From Streptomyces clavuligerus (GTDB taxonomy: Bacteria > Actinomycetota > Actinomycetes > Streptomycetales > Streptomycetaceae), in NCBI RefSeq assembly GCF_005519465.1, contig NZ_CP027859.1, forward strand, positions 1,488,001 to 1,552,000: DNA of 64,000 nucleotides, given 5' to 3'. The position numbers were made by a program, and so were the translations under genes. The notes below the pieces were generated by a model. The model ran no database searches, was not told where the DNA came from, and saw only the letters and a program-made list of their open reading frames with translations. Shown piece after piece: positions 37,212-53,772 of the stretch (its first letter is position 1; the number at the start of each line of letters is the position of its first letter).

Positions 37212-38792
37212 TCAGCCCACCCTGGCGCGGTCCGGTGCCTGTGGCGTCCGCCCGGTGTCCGCCGCCGTGCTCCCGGTCTCCTTTCCGTACCGCGCGATGG
37301 CCCCCGAGGCGAGCGCCATCGGGACCGCGATGACCGCGGCGACCCGGCCGAGCGGCATCGCGGCCAGCATCCAGCCGACGAGCGGCGGGCCGACGATGCC
37401 GCCGGACTTGCTGCACGCCGCGGAGAGTCCGCTGCCGAGGCCGCGGAAGGCCGTCGGGTACACCTGCGCGGTGTAGGGGCCGAGCACGGAGACCACACCG
37501 CTGGCACCGGTGAGGAGGCCGATCAGGACCGGGACGGCGACCCGGGGGTTGTCCAGCGGTACGGCGATGAGCGCGATGAGCGATCCCGCGGTGATCGCGC
37601 CGTAGAGCGTCATGGTCTTCCGGGTCGACCAGCGGCTGTAGAGCCAGGCGGCGACCGCGGTGCCCGGTACGGAGAGCAGGGCGGAGGCGAAGAGGATCTC
37701 CGAGGCCGGGGTCCTGAGACCGGAGTCCTTGAGCACGGTCGGCAGAAAGGTGACGAACCCCCAGTAGACCAGTCCCCAGGAGAGGGCGAAGCCGGAGATG
37801 ACCAACGTCTGGCCCAGATATCCGGGGCCGAGGAGCGCCCGCGCACCGCCCGGGGTCCGCGGTTCGGCCGGGGCGCGCGTCAGACCGAACTGAAGAGCCA
37901 TGCGCCGCGCCTCGGCGCTGCGTCCGCGCGACTCCAGGAAGCTGGGGGACTCCGGAATCCACCGGTTGAGGCCCAGCAGGGCGAGGGCCAGCGGGAGCTG
38001 GAAGAACCAGAGACTCCGCCAGCCGTACGAGGGCTCAAGGAGCGCGGACAGCCCGCTGACCGCCAGATAGCCGCCGACGGTCGTCAGCCCCGCGGTTAAC
38101 ACCATCAGCCCGCTGCGTCCGGGGAACACCTCGGACATCAGCGCGTACACGATCGGCAGCATGCCGCCTGCCGACATCCCCATCAGCAAGCACATCAGGA
38201 CGTTCGCCTCGAAGCTGGGCATCGCGCCGCACACCGTGGTCGCCACGAACAGCAGCGCCGCGAGCAGGACGGACGAGCGGCGGCCGATACGGTCCGCGAG
38301 GTGGCCCCAGAGCAGCGAGCCGAGCACCGTGCCGGTCAGCCCGCCCATCGGCAGCGCGGCGACCTCCGCGGCCGTGAGACCGTACTCGGCGCGGGCGCCG
38401 GGCAGGACGAAGGCCAGTGTGGCGGGCTTCATCTGATCGACCACCAAGGCGAACGACAGGACGGCGACAAGCCGTCTGCGCAGCCGGGTCCGCTGCTGTG
38501 CGGAGACGGGCGGGTCCGGTATGGGGGACCCGGCCGCCCCGGGGGCTCCTGTGGGCGGGTGGCCGAGGCGCCGGGGCAGGAGCCCCACGCCGGACAGGAC
38601 GAGCCCGAACACGATCGCCGCCATGGCGAGCCACATGGAGGCACCCATCGTCATATGGGCCATGTGATAGTGCATTTCGGCGGCGTCGACGAACATCCGG
38701 ATGTGCTCGGCCACCCCCGCCGAACAGACCACGATCCCGGACCAGAAGAGGAGCGGACGCGGGATCAGTCCTCGATCCCTGAGACGGTTCAT
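37212..38792 (-). CDS. MFS transporter (AAHS / sugar-porter type) with an extra N-terminal two-helix segment
   Basis: The 526-residue membrane protein is longer than the usual ~440. Residues ~125-500 are a complete 12-helix MFS core with LWGHLADRIGRRSSVLL between helices 2 and 3 and an RxxG-type PTAFRGLGSGL loop, as in aromatic-acid:H+ symporters and related carriers. Ahead of it are two extra hydrophobic helices (~15-30 and ~50-70) separated by a His/Met-rich segment (EMHYHMAHMTM). Leu232 is encoded by TTA (38097-38099, minus strand), the codon read by the bldA tRNA in Streptomyces, so production may be developmentally limited. It lies divergently from the MerR-like gene in front of the enediyne cassette and could export or import a pathway compound. 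Substrate unknown. GGAAGAGA precedes the ATG. Confidence 0.8.
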   Translation of the reverse strand: MNRLRDRGLIPRPLLFWSGIVVCSAGVAEHIRMFVDAAEMHYHMAHMTMGASMWLAMAAIVFGLVLSGVGLLPRRLGHPPTGAPGAAGSPIPDPPVSAQQRTRLRRRLVAVLSFALVVDQMKPATLAFVLPGARAEYGLTAAEVAALPMGGLTGTVLGSLLWGHLADRIGRRSSVLLAALLFVATTVCGAMPSFEANVLMCLLMGMSAGGMLPIVYALMSEVFPGRSGLMVLTAGLTTVGGYLAVSGLSALLEPSYGWRSLWFFQLPLALALLGLNRWIPESPSFLESRGRSAEARRMALQFGLTRAPAEPRTPGGARALLGPGYLGQTLVISGFALSWGLVYWGFVTFLPTVLKDSGLRTPASEILFASALLSVPGTAVAAWLYSRWSTRKTMTLYGAITAGSLIALIAVPLDNPRVAVPVLIGLLTGASGVVSVLGPYTAQVYPTAFRGLGSGLSAACSKSGGIVGPPLVGWMLAAMPLGRVAAVIAVPMALASGAIARYGKETGSTAADTGRTPQAPDRARVG

Positions 38793-39613: not shown

Positions 39614-39970
39614 CGCACACGGGGAGATGCCCGGCCCGACGGCAGCGTCCGATGATGGTCCCCGCTGACACATGCCAGAGGCGTATACCGACGAGAGGGC
39701 CGATCATGCCGACCGTTCCCGGCACGCCGCGCCGACTGCCGTCGGCTCCGCCCCCGGCCCGGGTGGCTTCGGGGTCCGGCCCGGCGCCCTGCGGGGGACA
39801 CCGGGCGGCCGGCCGTACGCGGGGCCGGTGCCCGGGCGCAGCGCCGCCGTGATGGGCTGAGCACCATGGAAGTGGACGCCCGTTCAGCGGTCCTGTGTAC
39901 ATTCTGAATTCGACGGCATTTCATGTGCTCCGCGTGTGAAAGAAAAATCGACGAAGGGTGGTGGAGCTTC
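39614..39970. promoter_or_regulatory. Leader region of the enediyne cassette
   Basis: These 357 bases separate the MerR-like gene from E3. From about 39895 to 39965 the sequence is notably A/T-rich for this window (TGTACATTCTGAATTC and onward), consistent with the main promoter and 5' leader of the cassette. No gene is supported. Confidence 0.4.
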
Positions 39971-40942
39971 ATGGGAGCAGATCTGCGTGCGCTGCGGCGC
40001 CGTATTCTCACCCCAAATGTTTCGCAAGTGAGTCTCGATGAACGTGGTTTCCACAAGAAGGACCCTGCGGCGCAGGAGCTTCTGGAGAACATCGGTCGCA
40101 ACTTTCTCGCGGGATACGGTCACGCCGCGGAGTCGCGCTCGCTCGCGGAGCTCGAACACCGCCTGGACATGGTCCCGGTGCGCTTCCGGGGTTTCGCCCA
40201 CGAAGGCGCGGCGATGGGGTGCACCGTCGTCGACGCGCTGCCGGGCAGCCGCGGCAGACGACTGGCGGGTTTCCTGGCGGGGGACGGGCGGCACCACGTC
40301 TACATGGCGTACGTCGGCATCGGCTGGGCCATGGCCAGGCTGCCGCGGTTCCGCTGGCCCGGTCTCTCGGCGACCTCCCCGCTCCTGCGGTGGCTCGTCC
40401 TCGACGGCTACGGCTTCCACCAGGCGTACTTCCACACCACCAAGTACGTCTACGGACACCACCAGGACGCCCCCCGGCGCTTTCCCTTCGAACCCGCCTC
40501 CTATGTCCAGCGCGCCATGGACCAGGGCATCGGCCGCGCGCTGTGGTTCATCGGCGGCACCGACCCCCAGTCTGTCATGAACCTGATCGAACGATTCCCC
40601 ACGGCCCGCCACGCCGATCTGTGCGCGGGCGTCGGACTCGCCGCCACATACGCGGGCGGCGCGGACGAGGAGGAACTGCGGTTGCTGCTGCGGCTCGCCG
40701 GGGAGCACGCGCGCCAGGTCGGCCAGGGATCGGCGTTCGCCGCCGAGGCGCGTGAGAAGGCGGGGCTCACCGGTCCCGAAACCGGGCTCGCCACCCGGGT
40801 GCTGTGCGGCCTGGAACCCGCCGAGGCGGCCCGGCTCTGCCGCGAATTGCAGCCCGGCCGGCCGGACGACGCCGATGGCCATGCCTATGAGGAGTGGCGC
40901 CAGAGAATCGCCGAGAAAATTTCTGTCCGAGGAGAGGTGTAG
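39971..40942 (+). CDS. unbL: Enediyne biosynthesis protein E3 / UnbL (DUF1702)
   Basis: The 323-residue protein has the family's signature opening MGADLRALRRRILTP...RGF and later conserved blocks (FAHEGAAMGCTVVDAL, YVGIGWAMARLP, DGYGFHQAYFHT, RALWFIGGTDP, ADLCAGVGLAATYAGG). E3 is present beside the PKSE in enediyne clusters and is needed for maturing the polyene into the core, but its reaction is not established. The start was set at ATG 39971, with GGTGGAG about six bases upstream, because it matches the family N-terminus; ATG 39923 would add 16 residues (MCSACERKID...) without a ribosome site. It is the first gene of the rightward cassette; E4 begins six bases after its stop. It is likely a soluble or membrane-associated partner of E4 and E5. 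Confidence 0.92.
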   Translation: MGADLRALRRRILTPNVSQVSLDERGFHKKDPAAQELLENIGRNFLAGYGHAAESRSLAELEHRLDMVPVRFRGFAHEGAAMGCTVVDALPGSRGRRLAGFLAGDGRHHVYMAYVGIGWAMARLPRFRWPGLSATSPLLRWLVLDGYGFHQAYFHTTKYVYGHHQDAPRRFPFEPASYVQRAMDQGIGRALWFIGGTDPQSVMNLIERFPTARHADLCAGVGLAATYAGGADEEELRLLLRLAGEHARQVGQGSAFAAEAREKAGLTGPETGLATRVLCGLEPAEAARLCRELQPGRPDDADGHAYEEWRQRIAEKISVRGEV

Positions 40943-40948
40943 AGAACC

Positions 40949-42913
40949 ATGGCCGCACGGAAATTGTTACGCAGGCAAGCTCCTGGAATCGTCGCTCTCA
41001 CGCTCATGGCGAGCACCTTCTATGCCGTACGCCTTCCGACGCCTTCCGAGGCCGATGTGGCACGTATGGCGAGTGGATACTCCTTCCGCCCCATGTCGGT
41101 CTCCATGCCCTCCGGATTCGATCAGCAGACGATCCGCAAGGTGAACAGGGACTACAAGGACATCGCGGCATGGATCTCGTCCGTCGGCGCGGGTGTCGCG
41201 ATGAACGATGTCGACGGCGACGGACTCTCCAACGACCTGTGCGTTACCGACCCCCGTATCGACCAGGTCGTGGTGACCCCCACCCCGGGCAAGGCCGCCG
41301 ACCGGTACCGCGCCTTCGCGCTGGACCCCGCGCCGCTGCCGATGAGCAGCACCATGGCGCCGATGGGCTGCGCCGCCGGGGACTTCAACGAGGACGGCGT
41401 CAGCGACCTGATCGTCTACTACTGGGGCCGCACCCCGGTGCTCTTCCACGGCAAGCCGACGAAGCCGGGCCGGGCCGCGAAGGGCGGTGCGCCCGCGCGC
41501 GCCGTGTCCGGCGCCCCCGGGAAGGACGTACTGACCGCTGACTCCTTCGAGCCCGCTGAGCTGGTGCGGGACGTGGGCCGGGCGACCTACACCGGACCGC
41601 AGTGGAACACCAACGCCATCACCATCGCGGACTTCGACGGGGACGGCCACGAGGACATCCTCATCGGCAACTACTTCCCCGACAGCCCCGTCCTCGATCC
41701 GACGCTGGACGGCGGCGTGGAGATGAACGACTCGCTCTCGCACGCCCAGAACGGCGGTGAGGACTTTGTCTACCGCTGGACCCCCGACGGCTTCGAGCGG
41801 GCCGACGGCGCGCTGCCCAAGGAGGTCAGGAAGGGCTGGACGCTCGGCGCCGCCGCCACCGACCTGGACGGCGACCACCTGCCCGAGCTGTATCTCGCCC
41901 ATGACTTCGGCACCTCCCGGCTGCTGCACAACCGGTCCAGCCCCGGGAAGATCCGCTTCTCGCCCGTCGACGGACCGCGCGACCCGCTGGTCCCCCGCTC
42001 CAAGCAGCTCGGCCGCAGCTCCTTCAAGGGGATGGGCGTCGACTTCGGGGATCTGGACGGCGACGGCCTCCACGACATGTTCGTCAGCAACATCACCACC
42101 TCCTTCGGTATTCAGGAGTCCAACTTCACCTTTATCAACAAGGCGGCGAACAAAGAGGCCCTGAGCAGTGACTTCAAGGTCGGCAGGGCCCCCTTCGAGG
42201 ACCGCAGCGTCCCGCTGGGCACGGCCTGGTCCGGCTGGGGCTGGGATGTGAAGACCGGAGACTTCGACAACAGCGGTGAGCTGGAAATCGTTCAGACCAC
42301 CGGCTTCGTCAAGGGCAAGACCAACCGCTGGCCCCAGCTCCAGGAGCTGGCCACCACCAACGACGGACTGACCCACGACCCCGACTGGTGGCCCCATGTG
42401 AAGGAGGGCGACGACATCGGTGGCGACCAGACCCTGCGGTTCTTCGCCAAGGGCGGCGAGGGCCGGTACCTCAATGTCGCCAAGAAGCTCGGTATGGCGA
42501 TACCCATCCCCACCCGGGGCGTGGCGACCGGTGACGCGGACGGCGACGGCCGGCTCGACCTGGCGGTGGCCCGGCAGTGGGGCGAGCCCGTCTTCTACAG
42601 CAACCGCAGCCAGGACCCCGGCGCCCACCTCGGTCTGACCCTCACCCACCCCTCCGGTTCGCCCGTCGTCGACACACAGGTCACCGTGGTCCACCCGGAC
42701 GGCTCCCGGCATGTCGGCCGGGTCGACGGCGGCGGCGGCCACTCGGGCAAGCGCAGCCACGAGGTCCACATCGGGCTCGGCGACGGCGTCGAGGGCCCCC
42801 TGAAGGTGCAGCTCCGCTGGCGCGACAGGACAGGGCAGGTGCGCGATCAGGAGCTGAAGCTCGCCCCCGGGCGCCACTCCATCGAGCTCGGCACCACGGC
42901 GAAGGAGAAGTGA
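40949..42913 (+). CDS. unbV: Enediyne biosynthesis protein E4 / UnbV (FG-GAP repeats, ASPIC/UnbV domain)
   Basis: The 654-residue protein begins with a basic segment and one hydrophobic helix (residues ~10-28: APGIVALTLMASTFYAV), a signal or membrane anchor. The body has repeated calcium-binding FG-GAP loops, for example NDVDGDGL, ADFDGDGHED, TDLDGDHLPE, GDLDGDGLHD, GDFDNSGELE and GDADGDGRLD. The C-terminal ASPIC/UnbV domain ends the protein. It probably acts outside or at the membrane in core maturation, together with E3 and E5; the chemistry is unknown. Codon 7 is TTA (40967-40969), rare in streptomycetes and read by the bldA-encoded tRNA. Placed so early, it could gate translation of E4 and, through coupling, of E5 and PKSE. 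GGAGAGG precedes the ATG, and the stop is followed at once by the E5 start. Confidence 0.93.
   Translation: MAARKLLRRQAPGIVALTLMASTFYAVRLPTPSEADVARMASGYSFRPMSVSMPSGFDQQTIRKVNRDYKDIAAWISSVGAGVAMNDVDGDGLSNDLCVTDPRIDQVVVTPTPGKAADRYRAFALDPAPLPMSSTMAPMGCAAGDFNEDGVSDLIVYYWGRTPVLFHGKPTKPGRAAKGGAPARAVSGAPGKDVLTADSFEPAELVRDVGRATYTGPQWNTNAITIADFDGDGHEDILIGNYFPDSPVLDPTLDGGVEMNDSLSHAQNGGEDFVYRWTPDGFERADGALPKEVRKGWTLGAAATDLDGDHLPELYLAHDFGTSRLLHNRSSPGKIRFSPVDGPRDPLVPRSKQLGRSSFKGMGVDFGDLDGDGLHDMFVSNITTSFGIQESNFTFINKAANKEALSSDFKVGRAPFEDRSVPLGTAWSGWGWDVKTGDFDNSGELEIVQTTGFVKGKTNRWPQLQELATTNDGLTHDPDWWPHVKEGDDIGGDQTLRFFAKGGEGRYLNVAKKLGMAIPIPTRGVATGDADGDGRLDLAVARQWGEPVFYSNRSQDPGAHLGLTLTHPSGSPVVDTQVTVVHPDGSRHVGRVDGGGGHSGKRSHEVHIGLGDGVEGPLKVQLRWRDRTGQVRDQELKLAPGRHSIELGTTAKEK
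40967..40969 (+). promoter_or_regulatory. TTA (bldA-type) leucine codon in E4
   Basis: Codons 5-8 of E4 read AAA TTG TTA CGC, so Leu7 is specified by TTA. In Streptomyces the only tRNA for this codon is the bldA product, which accumulates late in growth, so TTA codons often tie antibiotic genes to development. Confidence 0.8.
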
Positions 42914-42914
42914 C

Positions 42915-43925
42915 ATGACGGACACGACCGCAGAGATGACAGCTCCCGCGCCGCGCTACGATCCCAAGGTCGTCACCGCCCTGCGCCGGTTCGCGATCTC
43001 GATCTCCGTCTTCAACATCCTCGGCTACACCCTGCTCGGCTTCGAACAGCCCTGGACCTGGCCGCTGTTCGCTCTTGCGACCGCCTACGCCGTGGAAATA
43101 GTCCTGGAGGTCGTCGCAGCCCGCGCCGAGGGCAGGACGGAGCGCTTCCGGGGCAACGGGGTACGCGGGGTCGTCGAGTTCCTCTTCCCCGCGCACATCA
43201 CCGCCCTCGCGCTCAACATGCTGACCTATGTCAACGACCGCGTCTGGGTGATGCTCTTCGGTGTCATCGTCGCCGTCGGTGCCAAATGGGTGCTGCGCGC
43301 GCCGGTGCGCGGCAGGCTGCGGCACTTCATGAACCCGTCGAACTTCGGCATCGCGGTGATCCTGCTGCTGTTCCCCTGGGCGAGCATCGCACCCCCGTAC
43401 CACTTCACCGAGTATGTCTCGGGCCCCCTCGACTGGCTGATCCCGCTCGTCATCATCATGACCGGCACTCTGCTCAACGCGAAGCTCACCGGCCGCATGT
43501 GGCTCATCATGGCCTGGCTGGTCGGATTCGTCCTCCAGGCGGTCCTGCGCGGACTGATCTTCGACACCGCCATCCCCGGAGCCCTCGGCATGATGACGGG
43601 GGTCGCCTTCGTCCTCTTCACCAACTACATGATCACGGACCCCGGCACCACGCCCTCCAAGCCCGTCGCCCAGATGGCCTTCGGCGGTGGCGTCGCCCTC
43701 ATGTACGGGGTGCTCACCGCGCTGGGCATCGCCTACGGCATCTTCTTCGCCACCGCGGCCGTCTGCCTCGTCCGCGGCGGCTATCTCTGGTGGATCGACA
43801 TCTCGGCCCGGCGCGGACTGAGCCTGGCCCCCGCTCCACCCACTGCGGACACCGACTCCCCGGTGGCCGCCCTCGCAGGCCCCGGGGCCACCCCGGGCAC
43901 GGAGAAGGAGGCGATCGCCGCATGA
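42915..43925 (+). CDS. unbU: Enediyne biosynthesis protein E5 / UnbU (membrane protein)
   Basis: The 336-residue integral membrane protein has about eight hydrophobic segments and family blocks such as FNILGYTLLGFEQPWTWPLF, RGVVEFLFPAHITALALNML, HFMNPSNFGIAVILLLFPW and LFTNYMITDPGTTPSKP. The N-P-S-N-F-G and T-D-P-G-T-T motifs resemble those of RnfD/NqrB-type flavin-bearing electron-transport subunits, which hints at a redox role; this is inference from motif similarity. E5 always accompanies E3, E4 and PKSE in enediyne clusters. The ATG begins two bases past the E4 stop, and the 3' end overlaps PKSE by four bases (ATGA), so the three proteins are translated together. The C-terminal ~30 residues are a soluble Pro/Ala tail. 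Confidence 0.93.
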   Translation: MTDTTAEMTAPAPRYDPKVVTALRRFAISISVFNILGYTLLGFEQPWTWPLFALATAYAVEIVLEVVAARAEGRTERFRGNGVRGVVEFLFPAHITALALNMLTYVNDRVWVMLFGVIVAVGAKWVLRAPVRGRLRHFMNPSNFGIAVILLLFPWASIAPPYHFTEYVSGPLDWLIPLVIIMTGTLLNAKLTGRMWLIMAWLVGFVLQAVLRGLIFDTAIPGALGMMTGVAFVLFTNYMITDPGTTPSKPVAQMAFGGGVALMYGVLTALGIAYGIFFATAAVCLVRGGYLWWIDISARRGLSLAPAPPTADTDSPVAALAGPGATPGTEKEAIAA

Positions 43926-46900
43926 CATCGCGCATAGCCATCGTGGGTATGGCGTGCCGTTATCCGGATGCGGCTTCGCCTCGTGAGTTGTGGGAGAACG
44001 CTCTCGCGGGCCGCCGGGCCTTCCGCAGGCTGCCGGATGAGCGGATGCGGTTGGCGGACTACTGGGACCCCGACCCCGCCCGTCCCGACCGTTTCTATGC
44101 CCGTAACGCGGCGGTGATCGAGGGGTACTCCTTCGACCGGGTGGGTCACAAGATCGCGGGGAGTACGTATCGTTCGACGGATCTGACGCACTGGCTGGCG
44201 TTGGATGTGGCGGGGCGGGCGTTGGCGGATGCGGGTTTCCCGGGTGGGGCGGGGCTGCCGGGGCGGCGTACGGGTGTGGTCGTCGGTAACACGCTGACGG
44301 GTGAGTTCACCCGTGCGAATACGCTGCGGTTGCGGTGGCCGTATGTGCGGCGGGTCGTGGGGGCGGCGTTGCGGGAGGAGGGCTGGGACGACGGGAAGCT
44401 CGCCGGCTTCCTGGACGCCGTGGAGTCCTCGTACAAGAGTCCGTTCCCGCCGGTGGACGAGGACACGCTGGCCGGGGGGCTGTCGAACACGATCGCGGGG
44501 CGGATCTGCAACCACTTCGATCTGGGCGGCGGCGGTTACACGGTGGACGGGGCGTGTTCGTCGTCCCTGCTGTCGGTGACGCAGGCGGCGAAGTCCCTGA
44601 TCGACGGTGACACCGATGTGGTGGTGGCGGGGGGTGTGGATCTGTCGATCGATCCGTTCGAGATCATCGGTTTCGCGAAGACGGGTGCGCTGGCGCGGGG
44701 GGAGATGCGGGTCTACGACCGGCGTGCCGGCGGGTTCTGGCCGGGCGAGGGCTGCGGCATGGTGGTCCTGATGCGTGAGGGTGACGCGCTGGCGGCCGGG
44801 CACCGGGTGTACGCGACGGTGGCGGGCTGGGGCATCTCCTCCGACGGGCAGGGCGGTATGACCCGGCCGGAGGAGCGCGGTTACCGGCTCGCTTTGGAGC
44901 GTGCTTATGAGCGGGCCGGGTTCGGTATCGGGTCGGTGGCGCTGTTCGAGGGCCATGGGACGGGGACGGAGGTGGGTGATGCCACGGAGCTGGGGGCTCT
45001 GGGCGGGGCGCGTGCGGCCGGTGGGCCTGTCGGTCCGGCGGCGGTGGTGAGTTCGGTGAAGGCGCAGATCGGGCACACGAAGGCGGCGGCCGGGGTCGCG
45101 GGACTGATCAAGGCCGCGATGGCCGTCGACGAGGAGATCCTGCCACCGGCTGTCGGCTGTGGGGAGCCCCATGCCCTGCTCACGGGGGAAGAAGCCCCGC
45201 TGAGGGTGCTGCGCCGGGCGGAGGTGTGGCCGCAGGGGGCCCCGGTCCGTGCCGGGATCACCGCGATGGGCTTCGGCGGCATCAACGTCCACGTCGTCCT
45301 CGACAAACCGGAGGGCACCACAGCCTCCGTGCCGCGAGCCTCCGTGCCACGCCGTACGCTGACCGGCCGTCACCGCGTGCTCGCCTCCTCCGTCCAGGAC
45401 GCGGAACTGCTCCTGGCCGATGCCGACTCCCCCGGGGAGCTGCGCGAGCGCCTGGCCGGGCTGGCGGACTTCGCCGCCCGGGTCTCCTACGCCGAACTGG
45501 GCGACCTCGCCGCCACCCTCCAGCGGGAACTGCGCGACGCGCCCTGCCGGGCCGCCGTCGTCGCCTCCTCACCCGACGAGGCCGAACGGCTGCTGCGGCT
45601 GCTGGTCGACGTCCTGGACACCGGCGGTACCGAACACCTCACCGAGGACGGTCTGGCCTTCCTCGGCCGGGTCCGGGGCCCCGCCCGCATCGGCTACCTC
45701 TTCCCCGGACAGGGATCGGGGAAGAGCACCGGCGGCGGCGCGTTGGGGCGCCGCCTCACCGAGGCGGCCGAGGTCCACGCCCGCGCCGCCCTCCCCAGCA
45801 CCGGCGACACCGTCGCCACCGAGTCCGCCCAGCCCCGCATCGTCACCGGCTCCACCGCCGGGCTGCGCGCCCTCGACGCCCTCGGACTGGACGCGACCGT
45901 CGCCGTCGGCCACAGCCTCGGCGAACTCTCCGCCCTGCACTGGGCCGGAGCGCTCGACGCGGAGTCCTTGCTGCGTATCGCCCGGCTGCGCGGGCACACC
46001 ATGGCCGAGCACAGCGCCTCGGGCACCATGGTCTCGGTCACCGCCCCCGCGCCCGCCGCCGTCGCTCTCGCGGCCGGACTGCCTGTCGTCACCGCCGCGT
46101 ACAACGGCCCCGGGCAGACCGTCCTCGCCGGACCCGTCGACGCGGTCGAAACCGTCCTGGAGCGCGCCCGCGCCGCCGGAACGGCCGCCGTGCGGCTGCC
46201 CGTCTCGCACGCCTTCCACTCCCCGCTCGTGGCCCCCGCCGCCGACGCGTTCCTGGCACAGCTGACCGGATTCGCCTTCGGGCCCGTCCAGCAGTCCCTC
46301 GTGTCCACGGTCACCGGAGACCCCCTGGCCGCCGACACCGACATCCCCGCCCTGCTGCGCCGCCAGATCACCGAACCGGTGCTCTTCACCCAGGCGGTCG
46401 AGCAAGCCGCCCGGGACACCGACCTCTTCGTCGAGGTCGGACCCGGAGCAGTCCTCGCCCCCCTCGCCACCGCCGTCACCGGCGTACCGGCGCTCTCCCT
46501 GGACACCGACAGCGAATCGCTGCGCCCCCTGCTGCGGGTGGCCGCCGCGGCCTATGTCCTCGGTGCGCCGCTCACCCTCGACCGGCTCTTCCGCGACCGG
46601 CTGATCCGGCCCCTGGAGGTCGGCGCCGAGCTGCGCTTCTTCGCCAACCCCACCGAGCAGGCCCCGGACATCCGGGTGGAAGGCGGCCGGGACACCACGG
46701 CCTCCGCCGACCCGGCACCGCAGGCTCCCGGGCCCGAGGAGACCCGGGCACAGGCCGACGACGACGCGCCCAGCGCTCTCGATGTGCTGCGCTCCATCGT
46801 CGCCGAGCGGGCCGAACTCCCCCCGGAGACGGTCGGTACCGACATCAGGCTCCTGGACGATCTGCACCTCAGCTCCATCACGGTCGGCCAGATCGTCAAC

Positions 46901-49780
46901 CGCGCCGCCCAGCGGCTCGGCGTCCCCCCGGCCGCGACCCCGCTCAACTTCGCCACCGCGACCGTCGGCGAACTCGCCGAGACCCTTCAGACCCTCGCCG
47001 ACACCGGGCAGCCCGGCGACGCGGACCCCACCCCCGTGGTGGCGGGCGCCGCCGCCTGGGCCAGGCCCTTCGCCGTCGACCCGGTCGAACTCCCGCTGCC
47101 CGCCCCCGGGCTCGCGGAGGGCGACGGCCCCTGGACGGTCCACGCCGAATCCGGGCACCCATTCGCCGAGGAGCTGCGCGCCCGGCTCGCGGCCTCCTCG
47201 CTCGGGGCGGGCGTACTGGTCTGCCTGCCGCCCGCGTGCACCGAGGCACAGCTCGCCGACGCGCTGCGCGGGGCGCAGGCCGCCCTCGCCGGGGAGGACA
47301 TCCACCGCTTCGTACTCGTCCAGCACGGCCGCGGCGCCGCGGGCCTCGCCAAGACCCTGCACCTGGAGGCCCCCCGGCTGCGCACCACCGTCGTCCATCT
47401 GCCCCCGGACGCGTACGACGCGCACGCGGCGGCCGGTTCCGTCGAACAGGTCCGCGCCGAGACCGCCGCGACCGCCCGCTTCAGCGAGGCGTACTACGAC
47501 GCCGCCGGGGTCCGCACGGTGCCCGTTCTGCGCCCGCTTCCGGTGCGCCCGGCCCGCGCCCGGCAGCCCCTGGGCTCCTCCGACGTCCTCCTCGTCACCG
47601 GCGGCGGCAAGGGCATCACCGCCGAATGCGCCTTGGCGGTGGCACGTGACAGCGGCGCCCGGCTGGCCCTCGTCGGCCGCTCGGACCCCGCGTCCGACGA
47701 GGAGCTGGCGGCGAACCTGCGGCGCATGGCGGACAGCGACCTCACCGTCGCGTACGCCCGCGCCGATGTCACCGACCCCGAGCAGGTCCGTACCGCGGTC
47801 GAGCGGCTCACCGGCGAACTCGGCCCGGTGACCGCCGTCCTGCACGGCGCGGGGCGCAATGAGCCCGCCGCCCTCGGCGGACTGACCGCCGACGACCTGC
47901 GGAGCACCTTCGCCCCCAAGGTCGACGGGCTGCGGGCCGTCCTGGACGCGCTCGAACCGGACCGGCTGCGGCTCCTGATCGCGTTCGGCAGCATCATCGG
48001 CCGCGCCGGACTGCGCGGCGAGGCCCACTACGCCACCGCCAACGAGTGGCTGACCGATCTCACCGAGGAGTTCGCGCGATCCCATCCGCACTGCCGGACC
48101 CTGTGCCTGGAGTGGTCCGTGTGGTCCGGGGTCGGCATGGGCGAACGGCTCTCCGTCGTCGAGTCACTGGTCCGCGAGGGCATCACCCCCGTCACCCCCG
48201 ACCAGGGTGTGGAGATTCTGCGCCGGCTGGTGGCCGACCCCGACGCGCCCGCCGTGACGGTGATCAGCGGCCGTACGGAGGGCATCGCCACCGTACGCCG
48301 TGACTCGCCGCCGCTGCCCCTGCTGCGGTTCGTCGAGAAGCCCCTGATCCGCTACCACGGCGTCGAACTGGTGACCGAGGCCGAGCTGAGTGTGGGCAAC
48401 GACCCCTATCTCGCCGACCACCTCCTCGACGGCGACCTGCTGTTCCCCGCCGTCCTCGGCATGGAGGCGATGGCCCAGGTCGCGGCGGCCGTCACCGGCC
48501 GCACCACGGTCCCGGTCATCGAGGACGCCGTGTTCCTGCGCCCGGTCGTGGTCCCGCCGGGCGGCAGCACCACCATCCGCGTCGCCGCGGTCGTCACCGG
48601 CGACGACACCGTCGAGGCGGTCGTGCACAGCGCCGAGACCGGCTTCGCCGCCGAGCACTTCCGGGCCCGGCTGATCTTCACCGATGACACGCCCGTGCCG
48701 GACGGATCACCCCTCCCCGTCCCGGAGGGGACACCGCCGGTGGCCCTCGACCCGTTCGACGGCCTCTACGGGGACGTGCTGTTCCAGAGCGGACGCTTCA
48801 CCCGGCTGCGCCGTTACCACCGGGCCGCCGCCCGGGAGGTCGACGCCGAGGTGGCGACGGCGGGTGGCGAGGGGTGGTTCGCCGGTTTCCTCCCCGCGGA
48901 GCTGCTGCTCGGCGACCCGGGCATGCGGGACGCCCTGATGCACGGCAACCAGGTCTGCGTACCGCACGCCACGCTGTTGCCGCAGGGGGTCGAGCGGATT
49001 CACCCGTGCGGCGGCAAACCCGCCGGCGAACTGCTGCGTTACAGCGCCGTCGAGCGGCACAGGGAAGGGGACAGCTACACGTACGACATCGCGGTGCGCA
49101 CGGCGGACGGTGACATCGTGGAGCGCTGGGAGGGGCTGCGGCTGCGCGCGGTGCGCAAGCGTGACGGCGCGGGCCCCTGGGCGGCACCGCTGCTCGGCCC
49201 CTATCTGGAGAGGACGACGGAGGACCTGCTGGGCGTACGGCTGTCCGTGGCGGTGGAGCCGGTGGCGGCCAAGGGCGAGGCGAGCACCCGCCTCCGCCGC
49301 TCTCGTACGGCCGCCGCCGCGTCGCGCGCCCTCGGCGCCCCCACCCGGCCGCGGTACCGCGCGGACGGACGGCCCGAACTTCCCGGCGGCCGGTCCCTCT
49401 CGGCCTCCCACGGGCCGGGCTTCACGCTCTGCGCGGTGTCCGGTCCCGACGACGGGACCGTGGCCTGCGACGTCGAAGAGGTCGCCGCCCGCCCCGCCCC
49501 GGAGTGGGAGGCACTGCTCGGCGCACGGGACGCGCTCGCACTGCTCGTGGCACGGGAGACCGGTGAGGACACCGACACCGCGCGGACGAGGGTGTGGGCG
49601 GCGGGCGAGTGCCTCCAGAAGGCCGGGGCCACCGCGTCCGCTCCGCTCGCCCTCGCACCCGCCCCCCACGACGGCTGGGCCGTGCTCACCTCGGGTGGGT
49701 TGCGGATCGCCACGCTCGCCACCCGGATACGCGGGGCCGCGGAGCCCGTCGTCCTCGCGATCCTCACAGAAAGGCGCTAG
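43922..49780 (+). CDS. pksE: Enediyne polyketide synthase, PKSE (KS-AT-ACP-KR-DH-PPTase)
   Basis: This is a 1952-residue iterative type I PKS of normal PKSE length. KS: VDGACSSSLLS with Cys212. AT: VAVGHSLGELSAL with Ser665. The central ACP carries LDDLHLSSITV; Ser985 (or Ser984) takes the phosphopantetheine. KR: LLVTGGGKGITAECAL (~1223) with Tyr1370 in GEAHYATANEW. DH: NDPYLADHLLDGDLLFP with His1500. The C-terminal PPTase has ACDVEEVAAR (~1848) and RVWAAGECLQKAG, so the enzyme can prime its own ACP. It builds a linear polyene from acetate/malonate units in repeated cycles, the common precursor of all enediynes. ATG 43922 overlaps E5 by four bases. Part of the KS region (44150-45150) uses noticeably less C-rich, more G/T-ending codons than the rest. 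Domain assignment is firm. Confidence 0.97.
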   Translation: MTSRIAIVGMACRYPDAASPRELWENALAGRRAFRRLPDERMRLADYWDPDPARPDRFYARNAAVIEGYSFDRVGHKIAGSTYRSTDLTHWLALDVAGRALADAGFPGGAGLPGRRTGVVVGNTLTGEFTRANTLRLRWPYVRRVVGAALREEGWDDGKLAGFLDAVESSYKSPFPPVDEDTLAGGLSNTIAGRICNHFDLGGGGYTVDGACSSSLLSVTQAAKSLIDGDTDVVVAGGVDLSIDPFEIIGFAKTGALARGEMRVYDRRAGGFWPGEGCGMVVLMREGDALAAGHRVYATVAGWGISSDGQGGMTRPEERGYRLALERAYERAGFGIGSVALFEGHGTGTEVGDATELGALGGARAAGGPVGPAAVVSSVKAQIGHTKAAAGVAGLIKAAMAVDEEILPPAVGCGEPHALLTGEEAPLRVLRRAEVWPQGAPVRAGITAMGFGGINVHVVLDKPEGTTASVPRASVPRRTLTGRHRVLASSVQDAELLLADADSPGELRERLAGLADFAARVSYAELGDLAATLQRELRDAPCRAAVVASSPDEAERLLRLLVDVLDTGGTEHLTEDGLAFLGRVRGPARIGYLFPGQGSGKSTGGGALGRRLTEAAEVHARAALPSTGDTVATESAQPRIVTGSTAGLRALDALGLDATVAVGHSLGELSALHWAGALDAESLLRIARLRGHTMAEHSASGTMVSVTAPAPAAVALAAGLPVVTAAYNGPGQTVLAGPVDAVETVLERARAAGTAAVRLPVSHAFHSPLVAPAADAFLAQLTGFAFGPVQQSLVSTVTGDPLAADTDIPALLRRQITEPVLFTQAVEQAARDTDLFVEVGPGAVLAPLATAVTGVPALSLDTDSESLRPLLRVAAAAYVLGAPLTLDRLFRDRLIRPLEVGAELRFFANPTEQAPDIRVEGGRDTTASADPAPQAPGPEETRAQADDDAPSALDVLRSIVAERAELPPETVGTDIRLLDDLHLSSITVGQIVNRAAQRLGVPPAATPLNFATATVGELAETLQTLADTGQPGDADPTPVVAGAAAWARPFAVDPVELPLPAPGLAEGDGPWTVHAESGHPFAEELRARLAASSLGAGVLVCLPPACTEAQLADALRGAQAALAGEDIHRFVLVQHGRGAAGLAKTLHLEAPRLRTTVVHLPPDAYDAHAAAGSVEQVRAETAATARFSEAYYDAAGVRTVPVLRPLPVRPARARQPLGSSDVLLVTGGGKGITAECALAVARDSGARLALVGRSDPASDEELAANLRRMADSDLTVAYARADVTDPEQVRTAVERLTGELGPVTAVLHGAGRNEPAALGGLTADDLRSTFAPKVDGLRAVLDALEPDRLRLLIAFGSIIGRAGLRGEAHYATANEWLTDLTEEFARSHPHCRTLCLEWSVWSGVGMGERLSVVESLVREGITPVTPDQGVEILRRLVADPDAPAVTVISGRTEGIATVRRDSPPLPLLRFVEKPLIRYHGVELVTEAELSVGNDPYLADHLLDGDLLFPAVLGMEAMAQVAAAVTGRTTVPVIEDAVFLRPVVVPPGGSTTIRVAAVVTGDDTVEAVVHSAETGFAAEHFRARLIFTDDTPVPDGSPLPVPEGTPPVALDPFDGLYGDVLFQSGRFTRLRRYHRAAAREVDAEVATAGGEGWFAGFLPAELLLGDPGMRDALMHGNQVCVPHATLLPQGVERIHPCGGKPAGELLRYSAVERHREGDSYTYDIAVRTADGDIVERWEGLRLRAVRKRDGAGPWAAPLLGPYLERTTEDLLGVRLSVAVEPVAAKGEASTRLRRSRTAAAASRALGAPTRPRYRADGRPELPGGRSLSASHGPGFTLCAVSGPDDGTVACDVEEVAARPAPEWEALLGARDALALLVARETGEDTDTARTRVWAAGECLQKAGATASAPLALAPAPHDGWAVLTSGGLRIATLATRIRGAAEPVVLAILTERR

Positions 49781-49783
49781 ACC

Positions 49784-50242
49784 ATGGCGGACTACTTTGA
49801 ACACCGGCACATCGTCGGCTTCGAGGAGACCAACCTCGTCGGCAACGTCTACTACGTCAACTATCTGCGCTGGCAGGGGCGGTGCCGCGAGATGTTCCTC
49901 AAGCTGCACGCCCCGGACGTGCTCGCCGATGTGCGGGCGGACCTGAAGCTCTTCACGCTCAAGGTGGAGTGCGAGTTCTTCGCCGAGATCACCGCCTTCG
50001 ACGAACTGTCCATCAGGATGCGGCTCGTCGACCTGGCGCAGACCCAGCTCGAATTCACCTTCGACTACGTGAAACTGGAGCCCGACGGGGACGAGGTGCT
50101 GGTGGCGCGGGGCCGCCAGCGGGTGGCCTGCATGCGCGGACCGAATACCGCGACCGTCCCCTCCGTGGTCCCCGAAGCGCTGGTCCACGCGCTCGAACCG
50201 TACACGGGGGCCGCGAGCCCCCGGCTGAGGAGGACGGCATGA
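49784..50242 (+). CDS. tebC: Enediyne thioesterase E10 / TEBC (hotdog fold)
   Basis: The 152-residue acyl thioesterase is of the 4-hydroxybenzoyl-CoA thioesterase type. HRHIVGFEETNLVGNVYYVNYLRWQGRCRE is the characteristic start; in this family the Asp of other hotdog enzymes is replaced near E-x-x-N-x-x-G-N, and TEBC proteins share the NVYYVNY segment. It hydrolyses the polyene (or its beta-keto acid) from the PKSE carrier. It starts four bases after the PKSE stop and overlaps the E6 gene by four bases (ATGA), making stoichiometric co-production likely. Length and sequence are typical, and nothing is missing. Confidence 0.94.
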   Translation: MADYFEHRHIVGFEETNLVGNVYYVNYLRWQGRCREMFLKLHAPDVLADVRADLKLFTLKVECEFFAEITAFDELSIRMRLVDLAQTQLEFTFDYVKLEPDGDEVLVARGRQRVACMRGPNTATVPSVVPEALVHALEPYTGAASPRLRRTA

Positions 50243-50811
50243 GCCCCGCCCGGCCGCCCGCCCGCGAACGGCCCGACGCGCAGGGAGCGGGAGCGGTCCC
50301 GGATGTGCGGGACCCTCGTGAGCTGCGCGGCGCCTTCGGGACGTTCGCCACGGGGATCACGGTCGTGACGGTGGGGGGAGCGCTGCCCCGGGGCATGACC
50401 GCGAATTCCTTCACCGCCGTATCGCTCGATCCGCCCCTGGTCCTGGTCTGCGTGGGCCGCGAGGCGGTCATGCACCAGGTCCTCCTGAACGCCGAGCACT
50501 TCGCCGTGTCCGTGCTCGCCGCGGACCACCGGGAGGTGGCCCGGCACTTCGCCGACCGCTCCCGGCCCCTGGGCTCCGGGCAGTTCGCCGTCGGCGACTG
50601 GCGCCCCGGCACGGTGACCGGCGCACCCCTGCTCACCGGGGCCCTCGCCCACTTCGAGTGCGCGGGCCGCGCCCGCTACGACGGCGGCGACCACACCGTG
50701 TTCCTGGGTGAGGTGCTCGCCCTGAGCCGGGCCCCCGCCGGGGAGGCGCTGCTCTTCGCCGGCGGCCGCTTCCGGAACCTGGCGCCGGAACACGCGGAGG
50801 CGGCGGCATGA
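50239..50811 (+). CDS. NAD(P)H:flavin oxidoreductase, E6-like
   Basis: The 190-residue protein is of the HpaC/flavin-reductase domain family: RELRGAFGTFATGITVVTV, then RGMTANSFTAVSLDPPLVLVCV and HFAVSVLAADHREVARHFA, and the late strand GDHTVFLGEVLAL. It supplies reduced FMN or FAD to a partner oxygenase; candidates here are the FAD monooxygenase at 60117-61502 or enzymes outside the window. The position, directly after E10 and before the P450, is that of E6 in nine-membered enediyne clusters such as C-1027. It overlaps both neighbours by four bases (ATGA at each end). Confidence 0.88.
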   Translation: MSPARPPARERPDAQGAGAVPDVRDPRELRGAFGTFATGITVVTVGGALPRGMTANSFTAVSLDPPLVLVCVGREAVMHQVLLNAEHFAVSVLAADHREVARHFADRSRPLGSGQFAVGDWRPGTVTGAPLLTGALAHFECAGRARYDGGDHTVFLGEVLALSRAPAGEALLFAGGRFRNLAPEHAEAAA

Positions 50812-52163
50812 GCTGGGCGGCACGCACCCCGCCGGGGCCGCTGCGCAGAGAGCTGCCGCGGCTGTTCCGCAAACTGGTCACCGACCGGCTCGGGCTGCTG
50901 ACGGAGGCCGCGGCGCTGGGGGACGCGGTCCGCGTGACCCTGGGCCCCCGGACGCTGTACGTCTTCAACCACCCCGACTACGCCAAGCACGTCCTGGCCG
51001 ACAACAGCGCCGCCTACCACAAGGGAATAGGGCTCACCGAGGCCAGACGCGCCCTGGGCGACGGGCTGCTGACCAGCGAGGGCGAGCTGTGGCGCACCCA
51101 GCGCAGGGCCGCCCAGCCCGCCTTTCAGCACCAGCACCTGGCCGCTCAGGCGGATGTGATCGTCGAGGAGACGGCGAAGCTGATCGCCCGGCTCCGGGCG
51201 CAGGAGTCGGGCGCGCCGGTCGACTTCACCCAGGAGCTGACCGAGCTGACCCTCGGGGTGCTGGGACGCACCCTGCTGCACACCGACCTGACCGCGTACG
51301 GCACGGTCGGACACGCCTTCGAAGCCGTGCAGGACCAGGCGATGTTCGAGATGGTGACGCAGGGGATGGTTCCCCTGTGGGCGCCGCTGCCCCAGCAGCG
51401 CCGCTTCCACCAGGCCCGTGCCGAGCTGCGGCGCGTGGTGGACCAGCTTGTCGCGGAACGGACGGACCGGCCCGCCGAGAGCCCGGCCGACGACGTGCTC
51501 TCCCGGCTGATCGACTCCACCCGGCGGGAGCCCGACCCCGAGGTCGGCCGCAGACGTCTCCACGACGACCTGGTGACCCTGCTGCTGGCCGGGCACGAGA
51601 CGACGGCGAGCACGCTCGGCTGGACGTTCCACCTGCTGGACCGCCATCCGGAGGCCGCGGCGCGGGTCAGGGAGGAGGCGCGCGGCGCCCTCGGCGACCG
51701 CGCGCCCGTCCTCGGGGACCTGCACGCCCTGCCGTACACCGGGATGGTCGTACAGGAGGCGATGCGGCTCTATCCGCCCGTGTGGATTCTGCCGCGGCGC
51801 GCGCAGCGGGCCGACGACGTCGGTGGTTACCATGTGCCTGTAGGGACGGATGTACTTATCTGTCCCTATACGCTCCACCGTCATCCGGAGTTCTGGGCGG
51901 AGCCTGAGCGCTTTGACCCCGAGCGCTTCGATCCGGCCCGGCCCGCGGACCGGCCCCGCTACGCCTACATCCCGTTCGGCGGGGGGCCCCGGTTCTGCAT
52001 CGGCAGCAACCTCGGCATGACGGAGGCCGTCCTGGTGACGGCGATGATCGCGCGGGAGCTGACACTGCGGACGGTGCCGGGACGCGAGGTGGTGCCCGAG
52101 CCCATGCTGTCGCTGCGGGTCCGGGACGGCCTGCGGGTCGAGGTACGGGCCGCCGCGCAGTGA
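50808..52163 (+). CDS. Cytochrome P450, E7-like
   Basis: The 451-residue P450 has all core motifs: AGHETTAST (I-helix oxygen-activating site), EAMRLYPPVW (ExxR), and the heme-binding loop FGGGPRFCIGSN with Cys397. It lacks an N-terminal membrane helix, so it is a soluble bacterial enzyme needing ferredoxin partners that are not encoded nearby. Its place at the end of the E10-E6-E7 string matches E7 of nine-membered enediyne clusters, where a P450 is thought to oxygenate the core or its precursor. ATG 50808 overlaps the flavin reductase stop. A short stretch near 51827-51875 has unusually A/T-rich codons (CCT GTA GGG ACG GAT GTA CTT) compared with the rest. A strong terminator follows. Confidence 0.92.
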   Translation: MSWAARTPPGPLRRELPRLFRKLVTDRLGLLTEAAALGDAVRVTLGPRTLYVFNHPDYAKHVLADNSAAYHKGIGLTEARRALGDGLLTSEGELWRTQRRAAQPAFQHQHLAAQADVIVEETAKLIARLRAQESGAPVDFTQELTELTLGVLGRTLLHTDLTAYGTVGHAFEAVQDQAMFEMVTQGMVPLWAPLPQQRRFHQARAELRRVVDQLVAERTDRPAESPADDVLSRLIDSTRREPDPEVGRRRLHDDLVTLLLAGHETTASTLGWTFHLLDRHPEAAARVREEARGALGDRAPVLGDLHALPYTGMVVQEAMRLYPPVWILPRRAQRADDVGGYHVPVGTDVLICPYTLHRHPEFWAEPERFDPERFDPARPADRPRYAYIPFGGGPRFCIGSNLGMTEAVLVTAMIARELTLRTVPGREVVPEPMLSLRVRDGLRVEVRAAAQ

Positions 52164-52221: not shown

Positions 52222-52986
52222 TCAGCCGGCGATCGCCTCCAGCGCGGCCATCCGCATGTCCAGCAGTGCCAGCAGCACCGGCGGGTCGAGCGTGCCCATG
52301 GGGCGCAGGTCGATGTCGGCGGGCTTGGCGACAGTGTCCGCGTTCACGGTGACGGGGCCGTAGGCCCCGATCGACGGGGCGGTGTCGGATTCGGCCCCGT
52401 CGACCTCCTCCATCCCGTAGGGGACGGACTGCACCAGTACATGCCATGTCCCGTAGGGGACGTCCTCCAGGACATAGGGCCCCGGGCGGTCGAGCACCGC
52501 ACACCGCGAGGGCTGCCCCTGCGGGATGCAGCCGGCGAACAGTCCGATGAAGACGGGCCCGGGGGCGGTGCCCTCCGAGGCGCGGACGGTGCCCCGCAGC
52601 AGGGCGGAGCGCGTTCTGCCCGGTCCCGTGCCGGCCATGTTGATCCGCGGGGTGTAGCCACCGAGCTGACGGTATGTGGTCGGGGCCAGACCGACGGAAC
52701 TCTTGAACCGGGAGCTGAACGTGCCGACGCTCTGGTATCCGACGATATTGCTGATATCCGCGATGTTCAGCTCGGTGCTGACGAGGAGCCGTTTGGCCTC
52801 CTGGAGCCGGAGCGCGGAAAGAAATCTTCCGGGTGAAGTGCCTGTCATGTTCTTGAACATTCGGGTGAAGTGGAATTTGCTGAACATCGCCGTTTCGGCC
52901 ATGTCGTCGATGGTTATTTCTTCCCCGAGATTCTCGTACATGGAGCTGATGACTCGTGTTACTGCTCGTTCGGCAGTGGTCTGCAT
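52222..52986 (-). CDS. AraC-family transcriptional regulator with a C-terminal beta-rich extension
   Basis: The 254-residue protein has the double helix-turn-helix DNA-binding domain at its N-terminus. Helix-turn-helix 1 is ITIDDMAETAMFSKFHFTRMFKNMTG; helix-turn-helix 2 is ADISNIVGYQSVGTFSSRFKSSVG followed by the family end P-T-T-Y-R. In most AraC proteins this domain is C-terminal. Here it is followed by ~130 residues of strand-rich sequence (FIGLFAGCIPQG; GPYVLEDVPYGTWHVLVQSV) resembling transthyretin/carboxypeptidase-regulatory beta-sandwiches, which may sense a ligand. The start was set at ATG 52986 with AGGAGAGG close upstream; ATG 53025 is an alternative. AraC-type regulators occur in nine-membered enediyne clusters. 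It is convergent with the cassette and divergent from the oxidoreductase genes, so it may control both. Confidence 0.85.
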   Translation of the reverse strand: MQTTAERAVTRVISSMYENLGEEITIDDMAETAMFSKFHFTRMFKNMTGTSPGRFLSALRLQEAKRLLVSTELNIADISNIVGYQSVGTFSSRFKSSVGLAPTTYRQLGGYTPRINMAGTGPGRTRSALLRGTVRASEGTAPGPVFIGLFAGCIPQGQPSRCAVLDRPGPYVLEDVPYGTWHVLVQSVPYGMEEVDGAESDTAPSIGAYGPVTVNADTVAKPADIDLRPMGTLDPPVLLALLDMRMAALEAIAG

Positions 52987-53772
52987 AAACCTCTCCTGCG
53001 TCAGTTTGCCTGCTTCTTGTCTCATCAGGTCTTCGGTGATGTGCGGCTCCGCGCAGGCGCGGTGCGCCCGTCGGCTGTCGCGACGGCGGCGGCGCGGTGT
53101 GCGGGCATGGCAAGATGACGAACCATCAGTTCTCTTCGTTGGTACTGATGGTCGCGGCAGTGGTGGTTCACGGACGCAGCCGGCGGAACCCCTCCCGCCG
53201 TGGAGCGGAGCCGAAGGGATGCCGCAGGTGCCGTAAGCGGACCTTCTCCGCAGTCCGCAGGAGTACCTCGTTCCCGTTATCTTCCGTGAAGGTCGTCTCG
53301 ACGGCCGCGCCGTCCTGTGGCATGGCGGCGACGAGGCGGTGCCCACGGTCGGGGACCGGTGGGGCGGGGCGGTGCGCGAGTATCGGCGGGAGCCGCTCGT
53401 CCGCGTGCGCCGGGCTCCGGATGCCCGCTCGTCGATTCTGTCGAGTCATGGGGAATCGATCCGTGATAAGTCGGATGCGACGATGGTGTGAGCATCCGCT
53501 CGCCATCGCGTATCAGTACCGGTCAAAACGGGCTCCCTCGCGGTCCAGTCGATGTCGGTATGCGGGTCTTGCACCCGTTTTAGATGCAGGTGACTGTGTG
53601 TTCATGCCTGATTTGAGCTGCCTCGACGAGGGTACTTGCTTGTCGAGTTCAGGCCAAGGGTGTGATGGTTGCCGACTCGCGCGTACCGCATCCAGCAATC
53701 TGCAAGTTGTTTGAACGAACTCAGTCTTCCTAGTTTGAGGGTGGTTAAACCTATCGATGTATTCAGGAGACA
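52987..53772. promoter_or_regulatory. Long divergent intergenic region, AraC regulator / oxidoreductase operon
   Basis: At 786 bases this is the longest gene-poor stretch in the right half. G+C content falls clearly between about 53450 and 53770, the likely promoter region for the operon starting at 53773 (ribosome site AGGAG). One short leftward frame, 53168-53323 (51 codons, MPQDGAAVETTF...), has gene-like codon bias and contains a TTA codon. It has no ribosome site and no recognisable family, so it is noted but not called. Confidence 0.4.

Follow-up and report, generated by a model that had tools for sequence, protein, structure and literature searches.

How can a gene cluster whose synthase groups with those of nine-membered enediyne producers be complete when E2, the gene that serves to tell nine- from ten-membered enediyne clusters, is missing from it? 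This question is raised by a 64,000-nucleotide stretch (C2:1488001-1552000, henceforth the window) of pSCL4, the 1,795,495-base megaplasmid (C2) of the clavulanic-acid producer Streptomyces clavuligerus (genome G000 in our surveys). Within it, the seven genes E3-E4-E5-PKSE-E10-E6-E7 (PKSE, the iterative enediyne polyketide synthase) form one operon at 39923-52163. E3 is the sole DUF1702 gene of the window, and the only E2 of the genome resides on the chromosome at C1:6418560-6419543. We consider it likely that pSCL4 bears a nine-membered enediyne pathway to which E2 is supplied in trans from the chromosome. The cluster is of a known kind in an unusual arrangement, and the separation of E2 from it is the noteworthy point.

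The original prediction for this DNA had claimed a complete warhead cassette in a single operon, and indeed all seven genes were found at the predicted place and in the predicted order, all on the plus strand. E3 (39923..40942) matches the Pfam DUF1702 family with 453 bits and belongs to the E3 clade, not to E2. It is followed by E4 (40949..42913), with Pfam FG-GAP repeats and UnbV/ASPIC and 61% identity to C-1027, and by E5 (42915..43925), a membrane protein of the RnfD/UnbU kind with a weak RnfD match in Pfam and 71% identity to C-1027. The PKSE (43922..49780) is a 1952-residue protein with the organization KS-AT-ACP-KR-DH-(PPTase-like), 66% identical to the C-1027 PKSE. The thioesterase E10 (49784..50242) finds its best PDB match in 4i4j, an 'ACP-polyene thioesterase' (257 bits), and then in CalE7 (220 bits). 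The flavin reductase E6 (50239..50811; Pfam, 144 bits) is 61% identical to the annotated SgcE6 and matches PDB entry 4r82 with 213 bits, while the cytochrome P450 E7 (50808..52163; Pfam p450, 269 bits) is 66% identical to the C-1027 P450. All five genes of the E3/E4/E5/E/E10 cassette, as defined in PMC5181780, are thus adjacent. We compared the genes with 80 named PKSE loci (the best 80 of 181, with flanks of at most 10 kb, some ended by contig ends) and found homologues of E3 in 79, E4 in 72, E5 in 72, E10 in 77, E6 in 76 and E7 in 69 of them. Because the core homologues recur in this way, the cassette is not a chance assembly. Four-base overlaps, predicted at most junctions, occur at three of six (E5/PKSE, E10/E6 and E6/E7), as well as downstream at DUF5987/GMC and GMC/AhpD; 'most' was too strong within the seven genes, the other three junctions being gaps of 6, 1 and 3 bases.

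The PKSE, which starts with the ATG at 43922 overlapping the E5 stop, had been credited with every expected active-site residue and with its own PPTase. The Cys-His-His residues of KS, the GHSLGE motif of AT, LHLSS of ACP and the KR and DH motifs were all found, and the C-terminal PPTase-like region aligns with PKSEs of the C-1027 clade. The full claim goes beyond this, because the SxSH and GxDxE patterns searched for in the PPTase-like region match neither the window PKSE nor the S. globisporus protein. Of 7985 candidates in a protein search, 6029 scored at E <= 1e-100; the best 120 of these were listed, and the nearest named protein from another organism among the matches listed is 74% identical. 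A tree of 101 rows pairs the window PKSE with a second PKSE of the same plasmid (100) and then joins the two to that of Streptomyces sp. NPDC020965 (99). The window PKSE lies in a seven-row clade (99) beside a 31-row Streptomyces clade containing the C-1027 producer CB02366 and S. globisporus, and the two together make up a 38-row Streptomyces clade (100). The PKSE is therefore not the deep separate branch that had been proposed as a sign of novelty; it groups with known nine-membered producers, in a tree without a characterised ten-membered PKSE in which the C-1027 producers form the sister clade. This lineage, along with an epoxide hydrolase 58% identical to that of C-1027, agrees with the nine-membered type that had been predicted. 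As a side observation, the database protein P0002 (1907 residues) is 77 residues shorter than the second PKSE of the genome (1984 residues) and is without a stretch near the C-terminal PPTase-like region.

The C-1027 record holds two DUF1702 genes side by side, which we take to be E2 and E3, and the DUF1702 tree agrees with this assignment. To our knowledge, E2 has no known function. Three DUF1702 genes are present in the S. clavuligerus genome: the window E3, the E3 of a second cassette on pSCL4, and C1:6418560-6419543. Neither E2 nor a recognisable remnant of it lies between E3 and the upstream transporter gene MFS1, nor is there an E2 anywhere on C2. The original prediction had been silent on the lone DUF1702 gene, the missing E2 and the second cassette. 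A DUF1702 tree of 156 rows splits an E2 side from an E3 side and places the chromosomal copy on the E2 side; in a careful tree of 44 rows the split has support of 100/100 and the chromosomal gene joins the Streptomyces E2s (93/82). It matches the best E2 reference with 451 bits and 70% identity, versus 245 bits and 46% for E3. At the 17 columns that separate the two kinds it carries the E2 letter in 16 and the E3 letter in none, and it keeps 103 of 105 E2-invariant residues, these columns having been derived from 12 E2 and 10 E3 rows, neither set including the chromosomal gene. According to PMC5181780, E2 predicts nine-membered clusters and R3 ten-membered ones. The genome as a whole does contain an E2, as expected of the nine-membered class, but the window cluster does not, and by that published cluster-level rule alone it would not be called nine-membered. 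We assign it to the nine-membered lineage despite the missing E2 because of the PKSE tree and the shared gene set; the requirement for an E2 within the cluster is in any case loose, E2 and E3 being 50 to 79 kb apart in some other genomes.

The chromosomal E2, with dhaK on one side and a block of other genes on the other, lies some 330 kb short of the right end of C1 and is solitary, with no other DUF1702 gene or cassette homologue in the 20 kb read. PMC5702194 describes a 303-kb stretch at the right end of the S. clavuligerus chromosome that can move to pSCL4; by these figures E2 is near this mobile stretch but outside it. In strain F1D35, E2 occurs at 100% identity on the 278-kb linear plasmid pF1D35B, and the second cassette is on plasmid pF1D35A. 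E2 may plausibly have been relocated by arm exchange.

We wished to know how unusual this separation is. Among the 80 named loci, with genes called by our own caller, E2 and E3 lie within 600 bases of each other in 61 and further apart in four, ten have E3 only, three are unclassified, one has E2 only and one has neither. The last two are explained by a missed call (L094, with two adjacent DUF1702 genes) and by a locus that starts at the PKSE (L123). When the E3-only loci were re-read by whole-genome searches with best-reference classification, E2 was recovered elsewhere in the genome for seven of the ten: 50 to 79 kb off in L100, L109, L129 and L132, about 6 kb off in L108, on another contig of a metagenome-assembled genome in L070, and only at a second, tandem locus of the genome in L080. 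A single DUF1702 gene per genome was found for L092, L119 and L125, and likewise for the unclassified L074, L095 and L131. At the level of the genus, the window E3 is matched in 38 of 392 genomes (G000 included). Leaving G000 aside, 31 of these encode a true E3, scoring 324 bits or more, and six only weaker relatives. A second DUF1702 match, taken as E2, stands in tandem in 24 of these 31; in G464 E2 is about 28 kb away within the same cluster, and the draft G616 has, on another contig, a partial and unclassified second match at the contig edge. No second DUF1702 match was found in the remaining five of the 31 (G427, which repeats L119, S. anulatus JCM 4721; G428; G538; G463; and G661). In the family, 43 of 297 genomes have a DUF1702 match, and besides G000 only a draft of 670 contigs (G075) is listed with DUF1702 genes on different contigs. 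Since neither the genus nor the family survey shows another split between finished replicons, S. clavuligerus is singular here: it is the only genome found with E2 and E3 on different finished replicons. Two further observations come from these surveys. An E3/E4/E5-like trio occurs in G661 (C1:1550527-1554271, L283), where the 12 kb read contain no PKSE, and G239, G334, G490 and G543 each have four DUF1702-like genes within a few kilobases whose scores fall far short of those of true E2 and E3 (with PF08012, about 284 to 229 bits in G239).

The extent of the cluster emerges from a comparison with 51 open reading frames (ORFs) chosen from the gene table of the C-1027 plasmid SGLP1 (NZ_CP013739.1) of Streptomyces globisporus C-1027, which we searched against C2:1328001-1592000 and 20 kb of C1 at E <= 1e-10. 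Twenty of the 51 match best within window coordinates 39.9-77.6 kb, at 31-80% identity. C-1027 E10, E4 and E3 are also matched in this block but score slightly higher at the second cassette, and C-1027 E2 matches best on the S. clavuligerus chromosome (64%, 397 bits). Seven ORFs have generic matches elsewhere only, and for 18 the stretches searched gave no match. In the reverse direction, C-1027 counterparts were found for 23 of the 25 ORFs that run from E3 to a C-methyltransferase about 13 kb outside the window; a SARP-type regulator and the ORF at 61991-64231 are the two exceptions. In window coordinates the cluster spans about 37.2 to about 77.5 kb, ending 13 kb beyond the window edge. Its C-1027-matched sugar genes encode an NTP-transferase (59%), a 4,6-dehydratase (62%), a glycosyltransferase (45%), two methyltransferases (44% and 36%) and, weakly, an aminotransferase (31%); an MFS pump (53%), an acyl-CoA dehydrogenase (62%) and an SgcJ homologue at 75.7-76.1 kb (59%; PDB 4i4k, 156 bits) are matched as well. 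Among the C-1027 genes with no match are sgcD, sgcG, component II, and the PaaK-like, acyltransferase and halogenase genes; HpaB, the 3,5-epimerase and others were not found either. For the apoprotein, C2 has no PF00960 match, and CagA matched nothing in the stretches searched. C1 has a weak PF00960 match of 28.6 bits against the curated cut-off of 25, at C1:4178442-4178609 (L009) within an ORF of 334 residues, and another of 16.1 bits, below the cut-off; matches occur in 4 of 14 control genomes, none above it. An apoprotein gene remote from the cluster may still exist.

Near the core, the DUF5987-GMC-AhpD trio had been cited among flanking genes that match no known enediyne cluster. This does not hold: the DUF5987 protein (53773..54339, plus; Pfam, 304 bits; 65% to C-1027), the GMC oxidoreductase (54336..55991, plus; Pfam; 80%) and the AhpD-like protein (55988..57031, plus; 46% to the annotated alkylhydroperoxidase), which carries a CPYCVQIHG motif and has no Pfam match, have homologues in 58, 58 and 52 of the 80 loci, and all three are present in C-1027. 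Between E7 and this trio lies an AraC-type regulator (52222..53346, minus; Pfam HTH_18; 54% to C-1027; 68 of 80 loci), and beyond the trio a mycothiol-isomerase-like, TIGR03084-type protein (57246..58049, plus; Pfam MDMPI_N; 66% to the C-1027 TIGR03084 gene; 43 loci). The epoxide hydrolase follows (58118..59272, plus; Pfam EHN; PDB 5f4z, 545 bits, and 4i19, 480 bits), with homologues within 10 kb of the PKSE in 4 of the 80 loci. On the minus strand are then a methyltransferase, probably of the amino sugar (59377..60120; Pfam Methyltransf_25; 44% to C-1027; two loci within 10 kb), and a flavin epoxidase of the MonCI/Lsd18 kind (60117..61502; 61% to C-1027; PDB MonCI, 178 bits, and Lsd18, 171 bits; five loci within 10 kb). 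The window closes on an uncharacterised ORF (61991..64000, plus, continuing to 64231) included by position only, whose part in the window has no Pfam or PADLOC family and no homologue in the 80 loci. On the other side of the cassette, and divergent from it, the MFS transporter MFS1 (37212..38714, minus; Pfam MFS_1, 106 bits) has equivalents at the same position in the second cassette (76%) and in a compact cluster of genome G548 (69%), and no homologue in the 80 named loci.

The second cassette, MFS-E3-E4-E5-PKSE-E10-regulator, is located at C2:1355909-1370268 (L019-L020; window coordinates -132091 to -117732), 170 kb from that of the window; AraC and StrR-like parts are joined in one annotated ORF in its regulator. 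Six genes compared between the two cassettes show protein identities of 68-85% and dN/dS of 0.17-0.43. The second cassette, with 83% DNA identity to the window cassette, occurs in 13 of the 20 records listed, these 13 being S. clavuligerus plasmids. In this plasmid-only collection the window flanks match only two full-size records at 99% or more, and the 13 strains may carry a window cluster on their chromosomes. The 12.2-kb cassette query is 100% identical in NZ_CP086233.1 (plasmid pSCL4 of strain DSM 738) and NZ_CP045850.1.

How might such a divided pathway operate? PKSE and E10 would make the polyene. Judging from the shared gene sets, E3, E4, E5, E6, E7, DUF5987, GMC and the AhpD-like and TIGR03084-like proteins may convert it to the core, in which the flavin epoxidase and the epoxide hydrolase would form a diol. 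A C-1027-like set of NTP-transferase, 4,6-dehydratase, aminotransferase, methyltransferases and glycosyltransferase would then attach an amino sugar. The intact solitary E2, usual tandem partner of E3, is predicted to act in trans from the chromosome. A stricter form of this proposal, to which we would give somewhat less than an even chance, is that the pathway is obligately split, with the megaplasmid holding the synthase, the tailoring genes and a partial second cassette with its regulator, the chromosomal E2 being needed, and only cells with both replicons producing.

Several points weigh against an E2 acting in trans in a nine-membered pathway. S. clavuligerus is without a known enediyne product. 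The genes with their matches and lineage, and the place and integrity of E2, are what the analysis shows; that E2 works with the window cluster, that the cluster is expressed and that its product is a nine-membered enediyne is what we infer. A tree with the chromosomal gene constrained to the E3 side of the split, at its stem, is not rejected by an AU (approximately unbiased) test (p 0.093), so that the gene may branch from that stem. In a search of plasmids, E2 and the second cassette were both found in F1D35, and E2 may therefore serve that cassette. For the StrR-like regulator (46%) and CMD (62%) of C-1027, the best matches are outside the window, at the second cassette or close to it. Homologues of the epoxide hydrolase, epoxidase and sugar genes are rare within 10 kb of the PKSE (0-8 of 80 loci), so that the link of these genes to the cluster rests on the comparison with C-1027. 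Our gene starts, moreover, are the output of a simple home-made caller. Finally, E2 may be dispensable for some products, because for some Streptomyces E3-E4-E5-PKSE-E10 loci the draft genome yielded no E2.

This last point leads to the view that the window cluster works without E2, making a shunt polyene or another core instead of a mature nine-membered enediyne, as may hold for E3-only mini-clusters, with the chromosomal E2 left stranded as a relic or turned to a new role. Such E3-only PKSE loci do exist: for L092 and L119 the draft genome contains one DUF1702 gene only; L092, G166 (the genome of L119) and G223 show no E7, GMC or DUF5987 in the stretches read; and in the 156-row tree no rows are nearer to the two pSCL4 E3s than those of the L092 and L119 E3s. 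This grouping was not recovered in the careful 44-row tree, however, and the window retains E7, DUF5987, GMC, the AhpD-like protein, TIGR03084, the epoxidase and the hydrolase, all missing from the mini-clusters as far as these were read. With 103 invariant residues kept, the chromosomal E2 is also unlike a dead leftover, and we regard this view as unlikely. A little less improbable, and compatible with E2 acting in trans, is that both plasmid loci and the chromosomal E2 form one pathway, in which the second locus (C2:1355909-1370268, with CMD at 1377352) would provide the regulator, CMD and an alternative polyketide synthase cassette, and the window the tailoring. The best matches of the StrR-like regulator and CMD, and the constraint on the genes shared by both copies (dN/dS about 0.17 to 0.43), are in keeping with such a division. 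Yet a second PKSE for one polyene would be superfluous, and among the plasmid records searched at least 13 from S. clavuligerus have the second cassette without a window-type one. The CMD link may also be due to chance, because some 9 kb and other genes separate CMD from the second cassette.

A further alternative, the view of the original prediction, is a new enediyne whose periphery derives from the genes at 3-35 kb, which encode nonribosomal peptide synthetases (NRPSs), a ligase and short-chain dehydrogenase (SDR) pair and a MIO-type lyase. These genes do adjoin the cassette, C-1027 contains a MIO-family aminomutase plus adenylation and condensation genes, and this aminomutase shares 37% identity over 86% with the window MIO protein. 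The best PDB match of the window protein is nevertheless an ammonia lyase (237 bits), with a tyrosine aminomutase so close behind (218 bits) that the comparison is not decisive. Homologues over 40% of length were found for the three NRPS ORFs in 1, 2 and 1 of the 80 loci, with identities of at most 32%, for the ligase-SDR ORFs in 3 and 4, and for the other left-hand genes tested in 0-4. Because such homologues are so rare among enediyne loci, the NRPS and ligase-SDR genes are probably part of an adjacent cluster; their inclusion in the enediyne cluster is unsupported, and we judge a new enediyne of this make-up the least likely of the alternatives. Two of these genes deserve mention in their own right. 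The ORF at 29605-35265 joins condensation, adenylation, carrier and thioesterase domains to an MFS transporter domain, and the plasmid-borne MIO-type aromatic amino-acid lyase at 18011-19561 has 516 residues. PMC4640377 reports a single matching lyase gene, SCLAV_5457, of 559 residues, and the 516-residue protein seems to be the product of another gene.

We therefore favor E2 acting in trans with a window cluster of nine-membered type. The cluster as such is not new, because PMC4640377, in a background remark, already states that S. clavuligerus might make enediyne-like compounds, inferred from cluster homology; most such clusters are taken there as silent. The window cluster is an orphan of this announced kind. 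With E2 alone on another replicon, it can be removed without touching the cluster, and a search confined to the cluster would score the pathway as E2-less. In this industrial species, strains whose plasmids have the second cassette but no window-type one offer natural comparisons.

Related systems include the E3-only mini-clusters of S. niveiscabiei (L092), S. anulatus JCM 4721 (L119/G166) and G223. Along with E3-E4-E5-PKSE-E10 these have a homologue of AraC, two of the three also have E6, and each genome contains one DUF1702 gene; L092, L119 and L227-L228 (the G223 locus) are also preceded by the same series of short genes, an SDR and a methyltransferase among them. The second pSCL4 cassette shares MFS1-E3-E4-E5-PKSE-E10-AraC and is likewise without E2, but E6, a full-length E7, DUF5987, GMC, AhpD, TIGR03084 and sugar-gene homologues are lacking from C2:1328001-1428000. 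The G548 cluster (C1:1573811-1596693, L266-L271) assembles MFS1, E2-E3-E4-E5-PKSE-E10-E7, AraC and DUF5987-GMC-AhpD-TIGR03084 in one block and shares StrR-like and SgcJ-like genes. It differs in that E2, 65% identical to the S. clavuligerus chromosomal E2, is in tandem with E3, no E6 is in the operon, the PKSE was read in two pieces, and no epoxide hydrolase, epoxidase, sugar or aromatic genes were seen in the 120 kb read. No characterised cluster was found to be near-identical in both gene content and order. Against C-1027, the mismatches lie in gene order outside the core and in the aromatic and apoprotein genes: C-1027 has a tandem E2-E3, the apoprotein, benzoxazolinate and halogenase genes and HpaB, none of which is in the S. 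clavuligerus plasmid stretch searched, while MFS1, the SARP-type regulator and the 61991-64231 ORF are without counterpart in C-1027. Because the search turned up none of the apoprotein, benzoxazolinate and halogenase genes in the cluster, its product should differ from C-1027. Both clusters nonetheless lie on linear plasmids and share the core cassette with E6 and E7, AraC, DUF5987, GMC, the AhpD-like and TIGR03084 proteins, the epoxide hydrolase and epoxidase, SgcJ, the acyl-CoA dehydrogenase, the amino-sugar genes and the MFS pump.

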